A stretch of DNA of 64,000 nucleotides from an uncultured Clostridia bacterium. GTDB lineage: Bacteria; Bacillota; Clostridia; Christensenellales; UBA3700. The notes under the pieces are model-generated. The model was not told the origin of the DNA. It worked only from the letters and a program-made list of their open reading frames with translations, and did no database searches. The stretch's first letter is position 1, and every line of letters starts with the position of its first letter. Below, in pieces: positions 44,563 through 50,606 of this stretch. The stretch spans positions 1 through 64,000 of the forward strand of contig CAMBZZ010000005.1 of NCBI GenBank assembly GCA_945872615.1. Direction: 5' to 3'. A program made the position numbers and the translations under genes.

Positions 44563-45999
44563 TTAAGCCATTGCGGCTTTTCTCTCTTGTTGCTTGGCTT
44601 GTAGATAAGCTATAGCCTCGTCTTTCGCTTGTTCTATCTTAGCGTTAAAGTCGGCTTGCGCTTGGTCTATCGTCGCTTTTGCGTCCGTTTGAGCATTAGC
44701 AATCTCGGCTTTTTCTTCATCTGTCAGGTTGCCGTCCATTGCGATTTTCGTGTCATCTTTTGCCTTGATTACGTCGGCAAGCAAAGCTTTGTAGCTATCT
44801 ACGTCCGTCAACTTGTTGACGTCAATGCCCTCAATCCAATCTCCGAGTTTTTCCACGGCTACTTTGAGATTGCCGTATGCCGAAGCGTCGTCTTCCATCA
44901 TAGCTTGCTCGGCTTGCTCTTCCGCCGCACTCAAGCCCGCTTTGATTTGCTCGAGCTTGGCGAGCACTACTTGTTTATCGGCTTCGGAGGCATTTTTGAC
45001 TAGTTTGTCACAGTATGCGTCAATGCTCTCCACCGTCACTTTACCGTCTTGATTTTGCAGCTCTTCTACTTCTACGCCCAAAATCGTGGCAATATCGCTC
45101 GCAACCGTTGCGCTTACTTCGAGTTCTCCGATTTGCTCGGCTATATAGATTGCGCCTTGCAAGGCATATTGCGCCGTGGTAAGCCCTAAGAGTTTCGTAC
45201 CCATCCAAGTAGCATTTGCCGCCGCGCTTACCTTATCAAGTCCGCTTGCCTTAGCCGTCATCATTTCGATATATTTGGCGTTGAAAATGCCAAAGTTTGC
45301 CGTATCTTTAGCAAGATCGAATGCTACGCTCGCAGAATCATATACCGCTTGATAAGCCGCAGTCGCATAGACGGATATTCTGTTCTCCCCGCTCTCGCAT
45401 ATCTCAATCAATTCACCGTTGTCCATAGACACGGCAGTCTCCAGGTCCAAAGACGCGTCGTACGCGCACGCGCCTAGTGCCAAGGCGAATTTAGATGCGG
45501 TAACGCCCGCATAATTTGGGTTGTTTTGTTTGAATTCCTCCCACTTTCTCGCTACCGAGAAAGGAATATCGGTACTTATATTCAGAGAAATGTCAGTCTT
45601 GACGTTGCCTATGGCGGCGGTAACCTTGGTCTCGATACTGTTCTCTAAGGTCGTCGTTTCTCCCGCTACGCTGACGGAGATTCCGCTGTTGTCGTCGGTG
45701 ATATAGCCGTATTCTATAGCCAAATCGACTATTTTAGTCGTGGCACTTTCAACGCTAGCGTTGATAAGTCCCTCTTCTCCGCACAACATTATTTGAGCGT
45801 CCTCGTTCTTTGCCGCAATGCTAACTACCCTGTCTTCGCTGTCGACAACCATCTCTATAGAGGGATTGATATTCAGCGATACCAAAGCCTTGTCGGTCTC
45901 TTGAGGCAAAGTATTATTATTGTTGCAACCCACGAAAGCTATCGTTGAGCATACCGTTATAATTGCAACTACCAATGCCAAAAATCTAAATCTTTTCAT
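44563..45999 (-). CDS. Lipoprotein with RsgI-like domain and helical C-terminus
   Basis: 478 aa. Signal peptide with lipobox AFVGC (lipidated Cys25). Residues about 40-150 resemble the RsgI middle domain: SLNINPSIEM, then DRVVSIAAKNEDAQIML and a VESATTKIVDLAIEYGYI helix. In Clostridium RsgI proteins this extracytoplasmic segment sits behind an anti-sigma-I domain and a transmembrane helix. Here there is no anti-sigma domain, no helix and no sigI neighbour. The rest is Ala/Glu-rich helical, with DUF-like repeats of unknown role (about 215-478). GGAGG precedes the ATG at 45999. Confidence 0.75.
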   Translation of the reverse strand: MKRFRFLALVVAIITVCSTIAFVGCNNNNTLPQETDKALVSLNINPSIEMVVDSEDRVVSIAAKNEDAQIMLCGEEGLINASVESATTKIVDLAIEYGYITDDNSGISVSVAGETTTLENSIETKVTAAIGNVKTDISLNISTDIPFSVARKWEEFKQNNPNYAGVTASKFALALGACAYDASLDLETAVSMDNGELIEICESGENRISVYATAAYQAVYDSASVAFDLAKDTANFGIFNAKYIEMMTAKASGLDKVSAAANATWMGTKLLGLTTAQYALQGAIYIAEQIGELEVSATVASDIATILGVEVEELQNQDGKVTVESIDAYCDKLVKNASEADKQVVLAKLEQIKAGLSAAEEQAEQAMMEDDASAYGNLKVAVEKLGDWIEGIDVNKLTDVDSYKALLADVIKAKDDTKIAMDGNLTDEEKAEIANAQTDAKATIDQAQADFNAKIEQAKDEAIAYLQAKQQERKAAMA

Positions 46000-46146
46000 G
46001 TTTACCTCCTTTGGCAATATTATATCGTCTTCACCAATAATGTAGCACCAAACCCAAAAAATGTAAATATAATCGAGCACAAATTTCAAATTTTGTTCAA
46101 ATTTTACATTGCTTCAATCGTTATATGGCAATACAATCTAATAGGC

Positions 46147-46213
46147 TAAAAAAGAACGCGCCAATTAGATTAGCACGTTCTATTTTAGTATTTTGACAGA
46201 TATTACTGTCAAA
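46147..46213 (-). terminator. Two tandem hairpins after the SPFH gene
   Basis: Next to the stop codon is a TTTGACAG / CTGTCAAA hairpin (about 46192-46213). Beyond it is a 9-bp stem (AGAACGCGC / GCACGTTCT, 46153-46181) followed on the minus strand by TTTTTTAGCC. The second looks like a standard terminator; the first may be a stability element. Confidence 0.75.
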
Positions 46214-46216
46214 AAA

Positions 46217-47125
46217 TCAAAGTTTGTTGCCGCAAGACGGACAAAAGGCGTCTTTTGCATTGACTTTTTTGCCGCACTTTGGACACACTTTTCCGTTATT
46301 ATATATGTTGATAGTAGTGTCGTCCGCCATTGCCTTTCCTACCGTTTCGATAGTTTCCATAGTGCGCTTATGGCTGTCGGAGATATTCTTCTGCAGTTTA
46401 TCTTCTTCCTTTTCAAAGCTACTTCCTCTCAACTCAAGCCTACGCTTTGCTTCTAAGTCGGCTGCGAGTTTTTCCATTGCCGCTCTATCGGCGTAGTGTG
46501 GCGGCTCTATCGTAAATACGCTGACGGCTACGCCGTATTCTTCTTGTAGCATATTGCTAAGGCTACTCTTGATATTGGCGGTAATGTCCAAGATATGCGT
46601 AGCATATTCCACGTATGATATTCTCGCGCTTATCATCACGTCGGCGGTTACTTTGATGACGTGCGTAGCAATAAAATCGGTAAAGTATTCATCCACGTCT
46701 TTGACTGTCAAAGAGCTTTTGCTTCCCACCATTGCGGAGACAAACTTGTCCACGTTCCCCACCTTGATTTTTGCCGAGCCTCTAAATGCCATGCGGATAG
46801 GCATCTGTAAGATGCTGTCCATATAGTCGTACTGCTCCGTGCCCCATAGAATCGTCACTATTTCTTCACAGTTGACGTAGCATACCTTGGCGTTGACTTG
46901 TTGCAGTTGATTGCCAAACCTAATCTCGTGCAGACCTGCGCCGAGACTTTGCTTGCCCACACCTTCCACGTCGGTTATCGCAACGAATCTATCCGGCACC
47001 GATACGTAAGTCGTCGTGTCCGTATCTAGTCCCGTCAGTTTGTCCACCGTCACGATATTACTTTGCGATTGCTCCGACATTCTAATCGTCTTTGCAGATT
47101 TTTCTTTCTTTTTCCAAAAGCACAT
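46217..47125 (-). CDS. SPFH-domain protein with C-terminal zinc ribbon (YdjI-like)
   Basis: 302 aa. No signal peptide; the SPFH/band-7-like domain occupies about residues 40-245, with the strand DRFVAITDVEGV near the start. A charged helical segment follows (about 225-275), then a zinc ribbon with C281, C284, C295 and C298. Proteins of this type (YdjI, sometimes called virion core protein-like) associate with membranes and form multimers. The gene follows the TIR gene by 14 bp with a strong AAGGAGGT site, so the two are made together. The TIR protein also has a zinc ribbon, at its N-terminus. Confidence 0.83.
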   Translation of the reverse strand: MCFWKKKEKSAKTIRMSEQSQSNIVTVDKLTGLDTDTTTYVSVPDRFVAITDVEGVGKQSLGAGLHEIRFGNQLQQVNAKVCYVNCEEIVTILWGTEQYDYMDSILQMPIRMAFRGSAKIKVGNVDKFVSAMVGSKSSLTVKDVDEYFTDFIATHVIKVTADVMISARISYVEYATHILDITANIKSSLSNMLQEEYGVAVSVFTIEPPHYADRAAMEKLAADLEAKRRLELRGSSFEKEEDKLQKNISDSHKRTMETIETVGKAMADDTTINIYNNGKVCPKCGKKVNAKDAFCPSCGNKL

Positions 47126-47139
47126 AATTACCTCCTTAT

Positions 47140-49305
47140 CTACTTATACAATATTTCATTTAATTTCTTTTCACTTATTTCTAACTCATCTATTTCATCT
47201 TGAATATACGACAAGTGACTATTTAAAAAATCAATATAACCATTTTTTTTACGTGCTTCAATTCTTAATTCTCTTCTCTCTCGAATTAATGATATTTCTA
47301 AAGTAAAAACAATAAATATGTACAATAATGGCAATATTGGTTTACATATTATCTCACCAAATAATTCATCTATTCCACCAAGATGTATTGCCAACAATAC
47401 AACACGTGCAAAGAAAGAAAAAAACAAAAGAAATATACTGACAAAAAACGCAACAGAGGAGTAAACAGGTCCGATCATAGTAAGTATAAGTACTATTGCA
47501 CTTAACAGTAAACATGAAGTAAAAATAAAACTAGATTGTATTAATCGATTATATTTTTTTATTTCTTTATTTTTATTTTTATAATCTTTTTCTTGGGTAA
47601 GAATATTTTTCTTCTCATCTTCTAAATCCGCACTTTTAGAACTAATCCTCTCTTTTAAAGACTTAATTCTCTGTTGCACTAATTCTGTATATATATTGTC
47701 TCTCTTATCCACCAAGCAGTTTACCAAATTGTGATATTCCGGCGTTTCTACTATTACTCCCATATCGGTTATCCCTCTCCCTTTACATTCTATAAGAGTA
47801 GACCAACATATTTGATACGTAGGATATTCTGCCACAAGGTTTTGAGCAAAAGGCAAAGCTTCTTTATACATATCCTCACACAACATCGAGTTTATATTCG
47901 ATATTTTATCCTGTGCCTTACAATTCTCTGTACATACGGAGATAATCTTGTTATAGTATTTCTTTTCTTCCGCATTGCAATTCTTCAAAACGAGTTTCAT
48001 CCATTCACAGTCCAAATCTATTGCAAAGTCCATCAACTGCGCTTCGTCAACGATACGCCATTTAGCATCGCCGTACATTCCGCTATATATATCCCACAAA
48101 TAATCTTCCGCCCATAGAAGCAGGCAAGCTCTGGCGGCTTCATAATCTGTAGGAGCAAACTTCTGCAATTCTTCAAAGCACTCGTCGTGTGCTTTTTTTA
48201 TATCACCGTCTGTCTTATTATAATACAATTTTAGGTGTCCCAATGCCTCTCTCTTCTTTTTGTCGGCAACAAGTTGTTCTGGTGTAAGATCCACCTTTAC
48301 CTTTTCTCTTGCGGTGCGGGCTAGTTCACGCATTTTTTCAAACTCTTCGAAGCGCTTTTTAGCCACGTCGCTGACGTTAACTTTTGTGATGGAGTTATCT
48401 GTATTTTCCACGTTTTCAAAGGCGGTTTTCAAATAACTTCTTACCTTGTCCCACCAATCCATATCGTCGTGGCGGATTGCTTGCTCTGCTCTCAATGTAG
48501 TTGGCAAGGTTTCGGGAGCGACGTTAGAGCCGAGAATCGTCTTAAAGGACTTGATTGGGTTGTCTTTGACCAAGTTTACAAATCTAGACCATTCGTTTTT
48601 TACCCACACTGCGTTGATATGTTCCAATGACGTACCTAGTATGAGCATTACTTTGGCGCTGTTGAGTGCCGAAAAGATATTGACTTCATACGCTCCCGCC
48701 TTGTCTGCAAGAGACTCTTCGGCATAAAAGACCTTGTAGCCGTAACCTGTCAGTTTGTAATACAAATCGCGCGCCCACTTACTCTCTTCCGTCGGGGTTG
48801 TGCCGTCTTCTTCGTTTTGCTTGTAACATATAAATATGTCGTAACTCTGCATTTTGCCCGACATGCTCAACAACTGTTTGCGCACCTTTTCTATGCTCTC
48901 GCCAAGTTTTTTGTACTCGGCACTTTCACTAGGCGTAGCGTCCTTGACTGCATTGTTGAAGTTGATATTGTCCTTGACAGCAATATTCTGCACTCTATGG
49001 CACAGCGTAGGCTTGTACTCGTTGTCTACTTTGTCTTTGACAAATTCTATGCCGTACTCCGACAAAAACATACCCCAATGAGCCTCGGCGCAAGTATTGT
49101 CCAAAGCTATAGCTCTCTCATACTCTTCCATAGCTCCCGCAAAGTCTTTGCGATACCTCAGCTTAGCACCCATATTGAGCGCAAACATCAACTCGCCATT
49201 GGTAGACTTGACGTAAGATTCCTTTTTGCAGTACCTACAACGATAGTGCCCTTCGGCAACAATTTCCATTTCCCCACCACAGTTTGGGCATTGCAAAATG
49301 TTCAT
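47140..49305 (-). CDS. Zinc-ribbon / TIR / membrane protein
   Basis: 721 aa. Domains in order: zinc ribbon with C6, C9, C23, C26; a TPR-like segment (about 40-80, FAGAMEEYERAIALDN); a TIR domain (about 152-290) starting SYDIFICYKQ with WVKNEW carrying the likely NADase Glu238; a long helical region (300-590); three or four hydrophobic helices (about 593-690); and a short coiled-coil tail. TIR domains in bacteria often cleave NAD+ in defence (Thoeris, CBASS) or act as scaffolds. The AAGGAGG-ATG start is clear. The last 550 bases are visibly poorer in G+C than the rest. Antiphage function is plausible but inferred. Confidence 0.85.
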   Translation of the reverse strand: MNILQCPNCGGEMEIVAEGHYRCRYCKKESYVKSTNGELMFALNMGAKLRYRKDFAGAMEEYERAIALDNTCAEAHWGMFLSEYGIEFVKDKVDNEYKPTLCHRVQNIAVKDNINFNNAVKDATPSESAEYKKLGESIEKVRKQLLSMSGKMQSYDIFICYKQNEEDGTTPTEESKWARDLYYKLTGYGYKVFYAEESLADKAGAYEVNIFSALNSAKVMLILGTSLEHINAVWVKNEWSRFVNLVKDNPIKSFKTILGSNVAPETLPTTLRAEQAIRHDDMDWWDKVRSYLKTAFENVENTDNSITKVNVSDVAKKRFEEFEKMRELARTAREKVKVDLTPEQLVADKKKREALGHLKLYYNKTDGDIKKAHDECFEELQKFAPTDYEAARACLLLWAEDYLWDIYSGMYGDAKWRIVDEAQLMDFAIDLDCEWMKLVLKNCNAEEKKYYNKIISVCTENCKAQDKISNINSMLCEDMYKEALPFAQNLVAEYPTYQICWSTLIECKGRGITDMGVIVETPEYHNLVNCLVDKRDNIYTELVQQRIKSLKERISSKSADLEDEKKNILTQEKDYKNKNKEIKKYNRLIQSSFIFTSCLLLSAIVLILTMIGPVYSSVAFFVSIFLLFFSFFARVVLLAIHLGGIDELFGEIICKPILPLLYIFIVFTLEISLIRERRELRIEARKKNGYIDFLNSHLSYIQDEIDELEISEKKLNEILYK

Positions 49306-49333
49306 AATTTCCTCCTTAGAATTTACTTTTTAA

Positions 49334-49388
49334 GTAATAATTTATTACCTAATGTATACATTATATAATGTAAATGTCTACAAGTCAA
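49334..49388. promoter_or_regulatory. Divergent promoter-operator region of TIR and HTH genes
   Basis: Minus-strand promoter TTGACT (49383-49388), 17 nt, TATAAT (49360-49365) for the TIR gene. Overlapping TATAAT on the plus strand (49364-49369) for the HTH gene. Three perfect palindromes are packed here: GTAATAA-T-TTATTAC (49334-49348), AATGTATACATT (49351-49362) and ACATTATATAATGT (49358-49371). The latter two overlap and cover the shared -10 bases. A repressor here would shut both promoters. Confidence 0.75.
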
Positions 49389-49432
49389 TAGGTTTTCGAC
49401 TTTATAATGAAAAATCAGCGGAGGAATTGATA

Positions 49433-49639
49433 ATGCAATTAAGAATACTTGAGATACTCAAAGAAAAAGGTAAAACAAAATATTGGCTGTACAATCAAAT
49501 GGGACTAAGCTATCAAAACTTCAATAAAATAGTCAACAACCAAACGGGCAGTATCAAGTTTGAAAATCTAAAAGCTCTTTGCGACATTCTCGAATGTACT
49601 CCCAACGACTTATTTACCGAGTATCACAACAAAAAATAG
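49433..49639 (+). CDS. Cro/C1-type HTH regulator
   Basis: 68 aa, a bare helix-turn-helix domain: KTKYWLYNQMGLSYQNFNKIVNN is the HTH (quoted in part; about residues 14-36), followed by FENLKALCDILECTPNDLF, the usual XRE tail. No ligand or oligomerisation domain. GGAGGAAT lies 8 nt upstream of the ATG. Divergent from the TIR-SPFH operon across palindromes that fit its own operators, so autorepression and repression of the TIR operon are likely. Confidence 0.88.
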   Translation: MQLRILEILKEKGKTKYWLYNQMGLSYQNFNKIVNNQTGSIKFENLKALCDILECTPNDLFTEYHNKK

Positions 49640-49825: not shown

Positions 49826-49908
49826 GCGGACATGGCGGAATTGGCAGACGCGTACGTTTGAGGGGCGTATGGGAGACCGTCCGGGTTCAAGTCCCGGTGC
49901 CCGCACCA
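49826..49908 (+). tRNA. tRNA-Leu (GAG)
   Basis: 83 nt, CCA encoded. Acceptor GCGGACA pairs with TGCCCGC except for an A5-C68 mismatch. The D-arm contains GAATTGGCAGACGC; the anticodon stem TACGT/GCGTA holds the loop TTGAGGG with anticodon GAG (Leu CUU/CUC). The class II variable arm is short, and the T arm is CCGGG-TTCAAGT-CCCGG. It stands alone with its own promoter and terminator. Confidence 0.96.
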
Positions 49909-49911
49909 CAC

Positions 49912-49946
49912 AAAAAATAGGAGCAAGCATTGCTCCTATTTTTTGT
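49912..49946 (+). terminator. Terminator of tRNA-Leu
   Basis: A stem of about 15 bp (AAAAAATAGGAGCAA / TTGCTCCTATTTTTT) with a three-base loop directly after the CCA. It ends in TTTTTT on the plus strand. Confidence 0.9.
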
Positions 49947-50012
49947 GGTGTAGGCACACATAGAGTTGAGCCTAACGAGCATAGCGAGTGTAGTAAAATT
50001 GAGGAATAAATT

Positions 50013-50606
50013 ATGAAAAAAGTTATTGTTTATATTCACGGAAAAGGCGGAAACGCCCAAGAAGCCGAGCATTATAAAAATCTTTTCCGAAGTTGCGACG
50101 TGATAGGTTTTGACTATCGCTCAAGTACGCCTTGGGACACCAAACAAGAATTTTCAGAATATTTCGACAATATGAGCAAAGATTACGACTCCGTAAGCAT
50201 AATCGCCAACAGTATAGGAGCGTACTTTTGTATCAACGCTTTGAGTGACAAAAAGATACAAAAAGCATATTTCATCTCCCCTATCGTCAATATGGAACAA
50301 CTTATCTTGGATATGATGCAGTGGGCTAACGTTACGGAAAGTGATTTGCAATCACAAAAACTTATAGCAACGACTTTTGGCGAAACTCTATCTTGGAAAT
50401 ACCTCGTTTGGGTAAGAAACCACCCTATAAACTGGAAAATTCCTACAAAAATACTCTATGGAAGTAAAGACCACTTACAATCGATTGACACGATTAAGTC
50501 CTTTGCCAAGCAATTCGGGGCGAGCGTTTGCGTTATGGAAAATGGGGAACACTGGTTCCATACCAAGGAACAAATGGACTTTTTGGATAATTGGATTAGT
50601 AGATAA
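50013..50606 (+). CDS. Small alpha/beta hydrolase
   Basis: 197 aa. Starts KKVIVYIHGKGG (oxyanion-hole HG). Nucleophile Ser67 in ANSIGAY, acid Asp153 in YGSKDHL, and His180 in NGEHWFH make a complete catalytic triad. No lid domain or signal peptide. Substrate unknown; probably a carboxylesterase or similar. GAGGAAT precedes the ATG. Downstream of the tRNA terminator; no separate promoter was recognised. Confidence 0.88.
   Translation: MKKVIVYIHGKGGNAQEAEHYKNLFRSCDVIGFDYRSSTPWDTKQEFSEYFDNMSKDYDSVSIIANSIGAYFCINALSDKKIQKAYFISPIVNMEQLILDMMQWANVTESDLQSQKLIATTFGETLSWKYLVWVRNHPINWKIPTKILYGSKDHLQSIDTIKSFAKQFGASVCVMENGEHWFHTKEQMDFLDNWISR

Follow-up and report, generated by a model that had tools for sequence, protein, structure and literature searches.

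A TIR gene beside an SPFH gene in an uncultured Clostridia bacterium, and the family of TIR-SPFH gene sets to which the pair belongs

Why should a gene for a TIR protein with an intact catalytic glutamate lie 14 bp from a gene for an SPFH protein? The question is raised by a stretch of 64,000 nucleotides from an uncultured Clostridia bacterium (Christensenellales, UBA3700; assembly GCA_945872615.1, contig CAMBZZ010000005.1, positions 1 to 64,000), which we call the window throughout. In it, a gene for a 721-residue zinc-ribbon/TPR-like/TIR protein with C-terminal hydrophobic segments (47140..49305, minus strand; open reading frame (ORF), Pfam and structure model) comes first and is followed, after a 14-bp gap containing a Shine-Dalgarno-like AAGGAGG (47126..47139, minus strand), by a gene for a 302-residue SPFH protein of the Band_7_1 family (46217..47125, minus strand; ORF, Pfam and hydropathy). 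A 68-residue Cro/C1-type helix-turn-helix (HTH) protein matching HTH_26 is encoded divergently (49433..49639, plus strand; ORF and Pfam). A sequence-only reading had earlier described this two-gene layout, with zinc ribbons on both partners and a divergent regulator, and ORF and Pfam analyses confirm it. We find that the TIR-SPFH pairing is real; TIR-SPFH gene sets make up a large family, of which the window pair is a rare and minimal form.

Linkage of the TIR and SPFH families

If the pairing noted by the sequence-only reading matters, homologues of the two proteins should often be neighbours, and they are. Our survey covered 78 loci from named genomes, drawn from the best 80 of 569 relatives; an SPFH gene was counted if it scored at least 60 bits against the hidden Markov model and lay no more than 5 kb from the seed TIR. 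Such a gene is present at 53 of the 78 loci, and at 29 of the 37 that have 5 kb of flank on both sides; 12 of 24 order-level regions also have one within 5 kb, always on the same strand (one of them, L122, is weak at 48 bits). All 57 SPFH genes share the strand of the nearest TIR gene; 19 of them lie within 100 bp of it and 54 within 1.5 kb, numbers for which random placement gives means of 1.6 and 19.5, respectively. Because genomes of the order mostly carry one Band_7_1 match each (77 of 101 have a match), chance neighbours should be rare. When the window's order is sampled evenly, 21 of 151 genomes have a TIR match. The wider loci are mostly labelled Clostridia, Lachnospiraceae, Oscillospiraceae or Ruminococcus, many of them by label from animal guts, and also include some Lentisphaerae, Chloroflexi, Paenibacillaceae and Synergistales.

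The same picture holds closer to the window. Taking the best nine TIR proteins (window included) among the best 120 of a capped set of 5211 matches as the close TIR clade, and eight of 26 matches as the close SPFH clade, we treat seven of the nine TIR and seven of the eight SPFH proteins, the window's included, as neighbouring pairs by inference, since the genomes behind them agree in the length of their longest contig, adjacency having been read directly for the window alone. Across these seven pairs, distances between TIR proteins (first 305 residues) and between SPFH proteins are correlated at r = 0.96, a value reached by 2 of 5040 permutations and inflated by shared ancestry. The nearest TIR homologue among the matches listed, at 59%, is from Christensenellales; contigs of GTDB r220 contain no member of the close SPFH clade. 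SPFH genes are also found with a third gene (described below) at L151, L152, L153, L154 and L155, where the DNA covered holds no recognised zinc-ribbon TIR; other zinc-ribbon proteins lie nearby at L151, L153, L154 and L155.

The window pair and how it might work

The TIR protein begins with a zinc ribbon (residues 1-31; 49213..49305, minus strand) whose cysteines C6, C9, C23 and C26 are invariant in 17 of 17 aligned proteins, followed by a TPR-like helical region (residues 37-84; 49054..49197, minus strand) seen in the structure model and in TPR models under cut-off. The TIR domain (residues 154-300; 48406..48846, minus strand) has a TIR fold in the structure model, and TIR fills the listed matches when the model is compared with other structures. 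As the sequence-only reading had proposed, the predicted catalytic glutamate is Glu238 in a WVKNEW motif (codon 48592..48594, minus strand): it occupies the TIR catalytic position and is retained in 137 of 138 homologue rows. The C-terminal part has no Pfam domain above cut-off; by hydropathy and structure model it contains three hydrophobic segments that form a predicted membrane anchor (residues 593-674; 47284..47529, minus strand), and two to three such segments recur in all nine close TIR proteins. The idea that the zinc ribbon is the sensor fared less well. Because ribbon cysteines are constant across the TIR family while the C-terminal part varies, comparison of the sequences makes it more likely that the ribbon is an assembly module and that the C-terminus, or the membrane part, is the sensor.

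The partner has an SPFH domain by Pfam and structure model, a C-terminal zinc ribbon (C281, C284, C295 and C298; 46220..46285, minus strand; Pfam and alignment) and no hydrophobic segment by hydropathy. Its N-terminus consists of MC[FL] and basic residues (47105..47125, minus strand), with M1 and C2 invariant in eight of eight close-clade proteins, and is a possible lipid-attachment or membrane-binding motif. The same Met-Cys and basic start (residues 1-7 of P0121-P0128) also opens two proteins of a relative, its SPFH protein and its short coil protein (L137 2125 and 3051).

How might such a pair work? Excerpts of PMC8581546 report that Bacillus subtilis YdjI requires YdjG/H to reach the membrane. 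The window pair resembles that pspA-ydjGHI system in having a Band_7 SPFH protein that carries a zinc ribbon at its C-terminus, lacks a membrane anchor of its own and stands beside a zinc-ribbon membrane partner. It differs in that no PspA (ESCRT-III family) or TPM gene occurs among the window's scanned neighbours and in that the partner carries a TIR domain. Because a partner in a YdjI-YdjG/H-type plan here carries a TIR with an intact catalytic glutamate, we suggest, with middling confidence, that the pair is a membrane-scaffolded NADase alarm in which an SPFH oligomer holds the TIRs inactive until envelope damage or phage attack. Since the SPFH protein has no hydrophobic segment, the C-terminal helices of the TIR protein, together with the Met-Cys/basic N-terminus, would anchor it by analogy with YdjG/YdjH and YdjI; the zinc ribbons on both proteins would serve assembly; disturbance would be sensed by the membrane part, at a threshold set by the SPFH ring; and clustering of the TIRs would lead to NAD+ cleavage and thence to a growth stop or cell death. 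A role in membrane stress or antiphage defence, as put forward by the sequence-only reading, is likewise what we infer.

The same likeness can be read differently. The pair might be an envelope-maintenance complex of the YdjGHI kind, in which the TIR is there for assembly or signalling and does not serve to deplete NAD+; we consider this unlikely, although an SPFH protein with a C-terminal zinc ribbon and a zinc-ribbon membrane partner is just the YdjI/YdjG plan (PMC8581546 and PMC11237479, in excerpts). A pure scaffold would not need the glutamate, yet all but one of the homologue rows keep it. Moreover, the sequence-only reading had accepted that a clear assignment to a known housekeeping function would count against it, and here the genome already has its ordinary Band_7_1/YdjI-like gene, separate and on a different contig (G000:C1).

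Under the alarm hypothesis the HTH protein would act as the operon's repressor, at a 16-bp perfect palindrome (49357..49372) found by sequence scan between the divergent starts. It overlaps the -10 element of the TIR gene's best promoter-like site (TTGACT-17-TATAAT; 49360..49388, minus strand), and of 2000 dinucleotide-shuffled spacers 19 contain a palindrome of such length; the genome holds no further exact copy and one copy with a single mismatch. We regard it as a candidate operator and nothing beyond that. GGAGG-type ribosome sites precede the TIR, SPFH and HTH genes, and terminator-like hairpins lie 3' of the SPFH gene (46153..46181, minus strand) and of the HTH gene. The suggestion that the HTH protein is a dedicated partner does not carry over to relatives: the gene is not constant, one similar ORF exists elsewhere, and other loci carry different regulators (an RHH gene at 12 of 78 loci; unlike HTH genes beside SPFH at L151 and L193). 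The protein itself weakly matches PDC-M69A in PADLOC (28.5 bits).

A wider family with exchangeable C-termini and varied partners

Beyond the close clade the gene sets grow. A third gene, encoding a coil protein of about 230 residues with an SDPxS motif, is found by profile at 48 of 78 loci, within 100 bp of the SPFH gene in 47 of the 48 and between the SPFH and TIR genes in 37; clustering finds it at 46 loci, always on the same strand. Its products have four hydrophobic segments in 18 of 24 rows and three in the other six. The window's genome gives no match to this profile, and the window's TIR protein bears C-terminal segments of its own.

At 29 of the 78 loci there are two to four TIR ORFs, 28 of these with an SPFH gene. 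Such multi-TIR sets would fit graded signalling, and thus the possibility that the TIR turns NAD+ into a messenger, cyclic or linear ADP-ribose, which acts on a receptor whose gene lies elsewhere, with no depletion. Recombinant TIR domains from gut Clostridia, which may or may not belong to the zinc-ribbon/TIR family, did yield ADP-ribose or a variant cyclic ADP-ribose (PMC9092222, in excerpts). No linked receptor or effector gene is recognised among the scanned neighbours, however, and we think a pure signal generator improbable.

Across the family, the N-terminal zinc-ribbon/TPR/TIR module is constant and the C-termini differ. In a scan of 60 proteins, with no locus contributing more than one, C-termini matched DUF6273 in 16, RCC1 in nine, LRR_5 in three and ankyrin in two. 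Hydropathy predicts one membrane helix in 59 of 134 TIR ORFs of at least 400 residues and more than one in 23. Where a single helix is followed by at least 60 residues, lysine plus arginine is in excess before the helix in 45 of 47 and the reverse is never seen (0 of 47). Ten of 32 longer one-helix proteins were scanned for domains after the helix, and eight have one (RCC1 in four, DUF6273 in two, LRR_5 and FGE-sulfatase in one each; none in two). From this charge bias and these post-helix domains we predict that the TIR lies inside and a binding-type domain outside. Sequence thus predicts, for the single-pass members, an inverted Toll-like receptor plan: the analogy lies in a TIR joined through a single predicted membrane helix to an LRR or other repeat domain outside, and the difference is the order, with the TIR at the N-terminus. 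The window protein differs further, having no recognised outside domain.

Some relatives add genes of a different character. HEPN matches occur inside two sets (L039 6818-7429, over cut-off; L053 7198-7779, under it), and L075 9234-10184 matches SIR2_2 over and AbiH under cut-off. At L039, L053 and L075 these HEPN- and SIR2_2-type genes sit between the SPFH and TIR genes; L066 13224-13862 weakly resembles CARF-HEPN proteins. BrxL appears as well, in operons of the window's own order that are headed by some SPFH genes and continue with a short coil, two coiled-coil proteins and an AAA ATPase. At L134, from the window's family, BrxL and a zinc-ribbon TIR gene come after an ATPase that has matches to AAA (1e-41) and Vps4_C over cut-off; at L137 a TIR gene is followed 12 bp on by SPFH, then by three coil genes, AAA and BrxL. 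A TIR gene also lies within such runs at L126, L132 and L194, and L193 has BrxL beside SPFH, ESCRT-III-like and AAA genes with no TIR in the DNA covered. The operons with a TIR gene span L134 4039-11435, L137 772-7490, L132 5511-15557, L126 1078-9973 and L194 6684-14415.

We call the second coil ESCRT-III-like because Pfam Snf7 matches above its cut-off of 27.3 bits (34 bits) in two of five homologues tested, P0149 and P0179; the other three had no Snf7 match, and the ESCRT-III-like profile found no relatives among PDB sequences. "Vps4-like" is a loose label, since the ATPase's best PDB matches are p97/Cdc48-type; its N-terminus looks MIT-like by eye, and no MIT model is among its listed Pfam matches. 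With the coil profile, 13 of the 151 genomes sampled from the order give a match, one of them weak, and the window's genome (G000) gives none. The likeness to archaeal and eukaryotic ESCRT-III/Vps4 systems therefore lies in some relatives' operons, where Snf7-family proteins and a Vps4_C-matching AAA ATPase stand beside SPFH, and the window pair differs in having none of these genes, neither Snf7-like nor AAA, among its scanned neighbours. Operons of Snf7/PspA proteins with AAA and Band-7 partners, and zinc ribbons of YdjG/YdjI, are described in excerpts of PMC11237479, whose main text contains no word beginning "Toll".

These partners pull in two directions. ESCRT-III-like and AAA genes in relatives favour envelope maintenance; some relatives have HEPN, SIR2/AbiH-like or BrxL partners, which suggest conflict with phage rather than maintenance. 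We tentatively propose, as a possibility rather than an expectation, a bacterial surface-immunity family with the window pair as its minimal unit. In it, arrays of inverted Toll-like receptors, each with a cytosolic zinc-ribbon/TIR NADase, a single membrane helix and an RCC1, LRR, DUF6273 or FGE domain outside, would be organised by an SPFH ring together with a small membrane partner; certain lineages would couple them to ESCRT-III/AAA and BrxL proteins.

A number of observations weigh against a membrane-scaffolded NADase alarm. Hydropathy finds no membrane helix in 52 of the 134 TIR ORFs. SPFH is missing from the DNA covered at 22 of the 78 named loci (11 of them with less than 2 kb on at least one side), from the vicinity in eight of the 37 loci with long flanks and in 12 of the 24 order-level regions, five of these 12 being TIR matches with no zinc-ribbon part; seven of the 57 SPFH proteins have no CxxC motif. 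In the window itself, the TIR_2 match is below the Pfam cut-off, Foldseek gives the TIR protein no PDB match at E 0.001 or better, and PADLOC has no significant model for the pair (best E 0.11 for the TIR protein, no match for SPFH). Phage and plasmid records contain no TIR relative (SPFH was not sought there), and viral contigs, in two-pattern scans, contain no relative of either close clade. A scan of ten further neighbours identifies seven as ordinary cell genes and leaves three unmatched; such an ordinary neighbourhood suits maintenance, as does the zinc-ribbon TIR beside SPFH in the ESCRT-like operon of G072 (L137 772-2112): its catalytic glutamate is replaced by isoleucine (IWRRF), and NADase activity may thus be dispensable in at least one relative.

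Surroundings, known systems and significance

The sequence-only reading had also raised the prospect of a defence island, and none is found in the window. At 1e-10, PADLOC matched seven models among 48 window proteins, one protein each (SspH twice, RTasPolA, mad8, pVip twice, PDC-S33), and we take the matched proteins to be ordinary-gene paralogues; a DNA polymerase I is indeed encoded in the window. The pair stops at the SPFH terminator-like site, and the genes nearest to the pair are RsgI-like, fn3, MscS, hydrolase and peptidase genes. The RsgI-like anti-sigma gene (44563-46008) adjoins the pair and, as its homologues occur in 29 of 39 family-sample genomes, is not part of it.

Thoeris, CBASS and Pycsar resemble the pair as TIR effectors within small bacterial gene sets, but no Thoeris model matches the pair and HTH protein in PADLOC at E up to 1, or the 48 window proteins at 1e-10; nor does the latter scan find a ThsA, CD-NTase or cyclase model. 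SARM1 carries SAM/ARM parts and the TIR-APAZ protein of SPARTA carries APAZ/Argonaute parts; the window protein has a zinc ribbon, TPR, a long helical region and hydrophobic segments instead.

Could the locus be a selfish or mobile cassette, addiction-like, with the HTH protein as its regulator? G+C content is low in the TIR gene (38.5%), the HTH gene (32.9%) and an adjoining alpha/beta-hydrolase gene (38.7%) against a mean of 46.6% (standard deviation 2.4) over the 36 other window coding sequences, hydrolase included. A tRNA-Leu lies next door, followed by that hydrolase gene (the two span 49826-50606), perhaps as part of the same acquired stretch, and the sample's single genome from the window's genus, G036, gives no TIR match. 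These three features make a recent arrival plausible but unproven. The SPFH gene, however, has a G+C content normal for the window (46.1%), no integrase occurs among the scanned neighbours, phage and plasmid records hold no TIR relatives, as noted above, and no empty site is readable, left and right flank markers lying on different contigs in every relative listed for both. A cassette of this kind is, in our estimate, improbable.

What, then, would the pair mean if the preferred reading, an NADase alarm held by an SPFH scaffold, were right? TIR NADases and SPFH scaffolds are two major themes, here genomically bonded. Among the matches listed, a literature search found no paper that joins them; PMC7159879 and PMC13239085 name both themes and, in the excerpts available, do not join TIR with SPFH. 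If the proposal is true, SPFH rings would gain a clear output, NAD+, and bacteria would gain a Toll-like receptor plan at the membrane, with a constant N-terminal module, exchangeable C-termini, the TIR inside and the sensor outside. Should the more tentative surface-immunity reading also be true, signalling by membrane TIR receptors in bacteria would be a widespread system.

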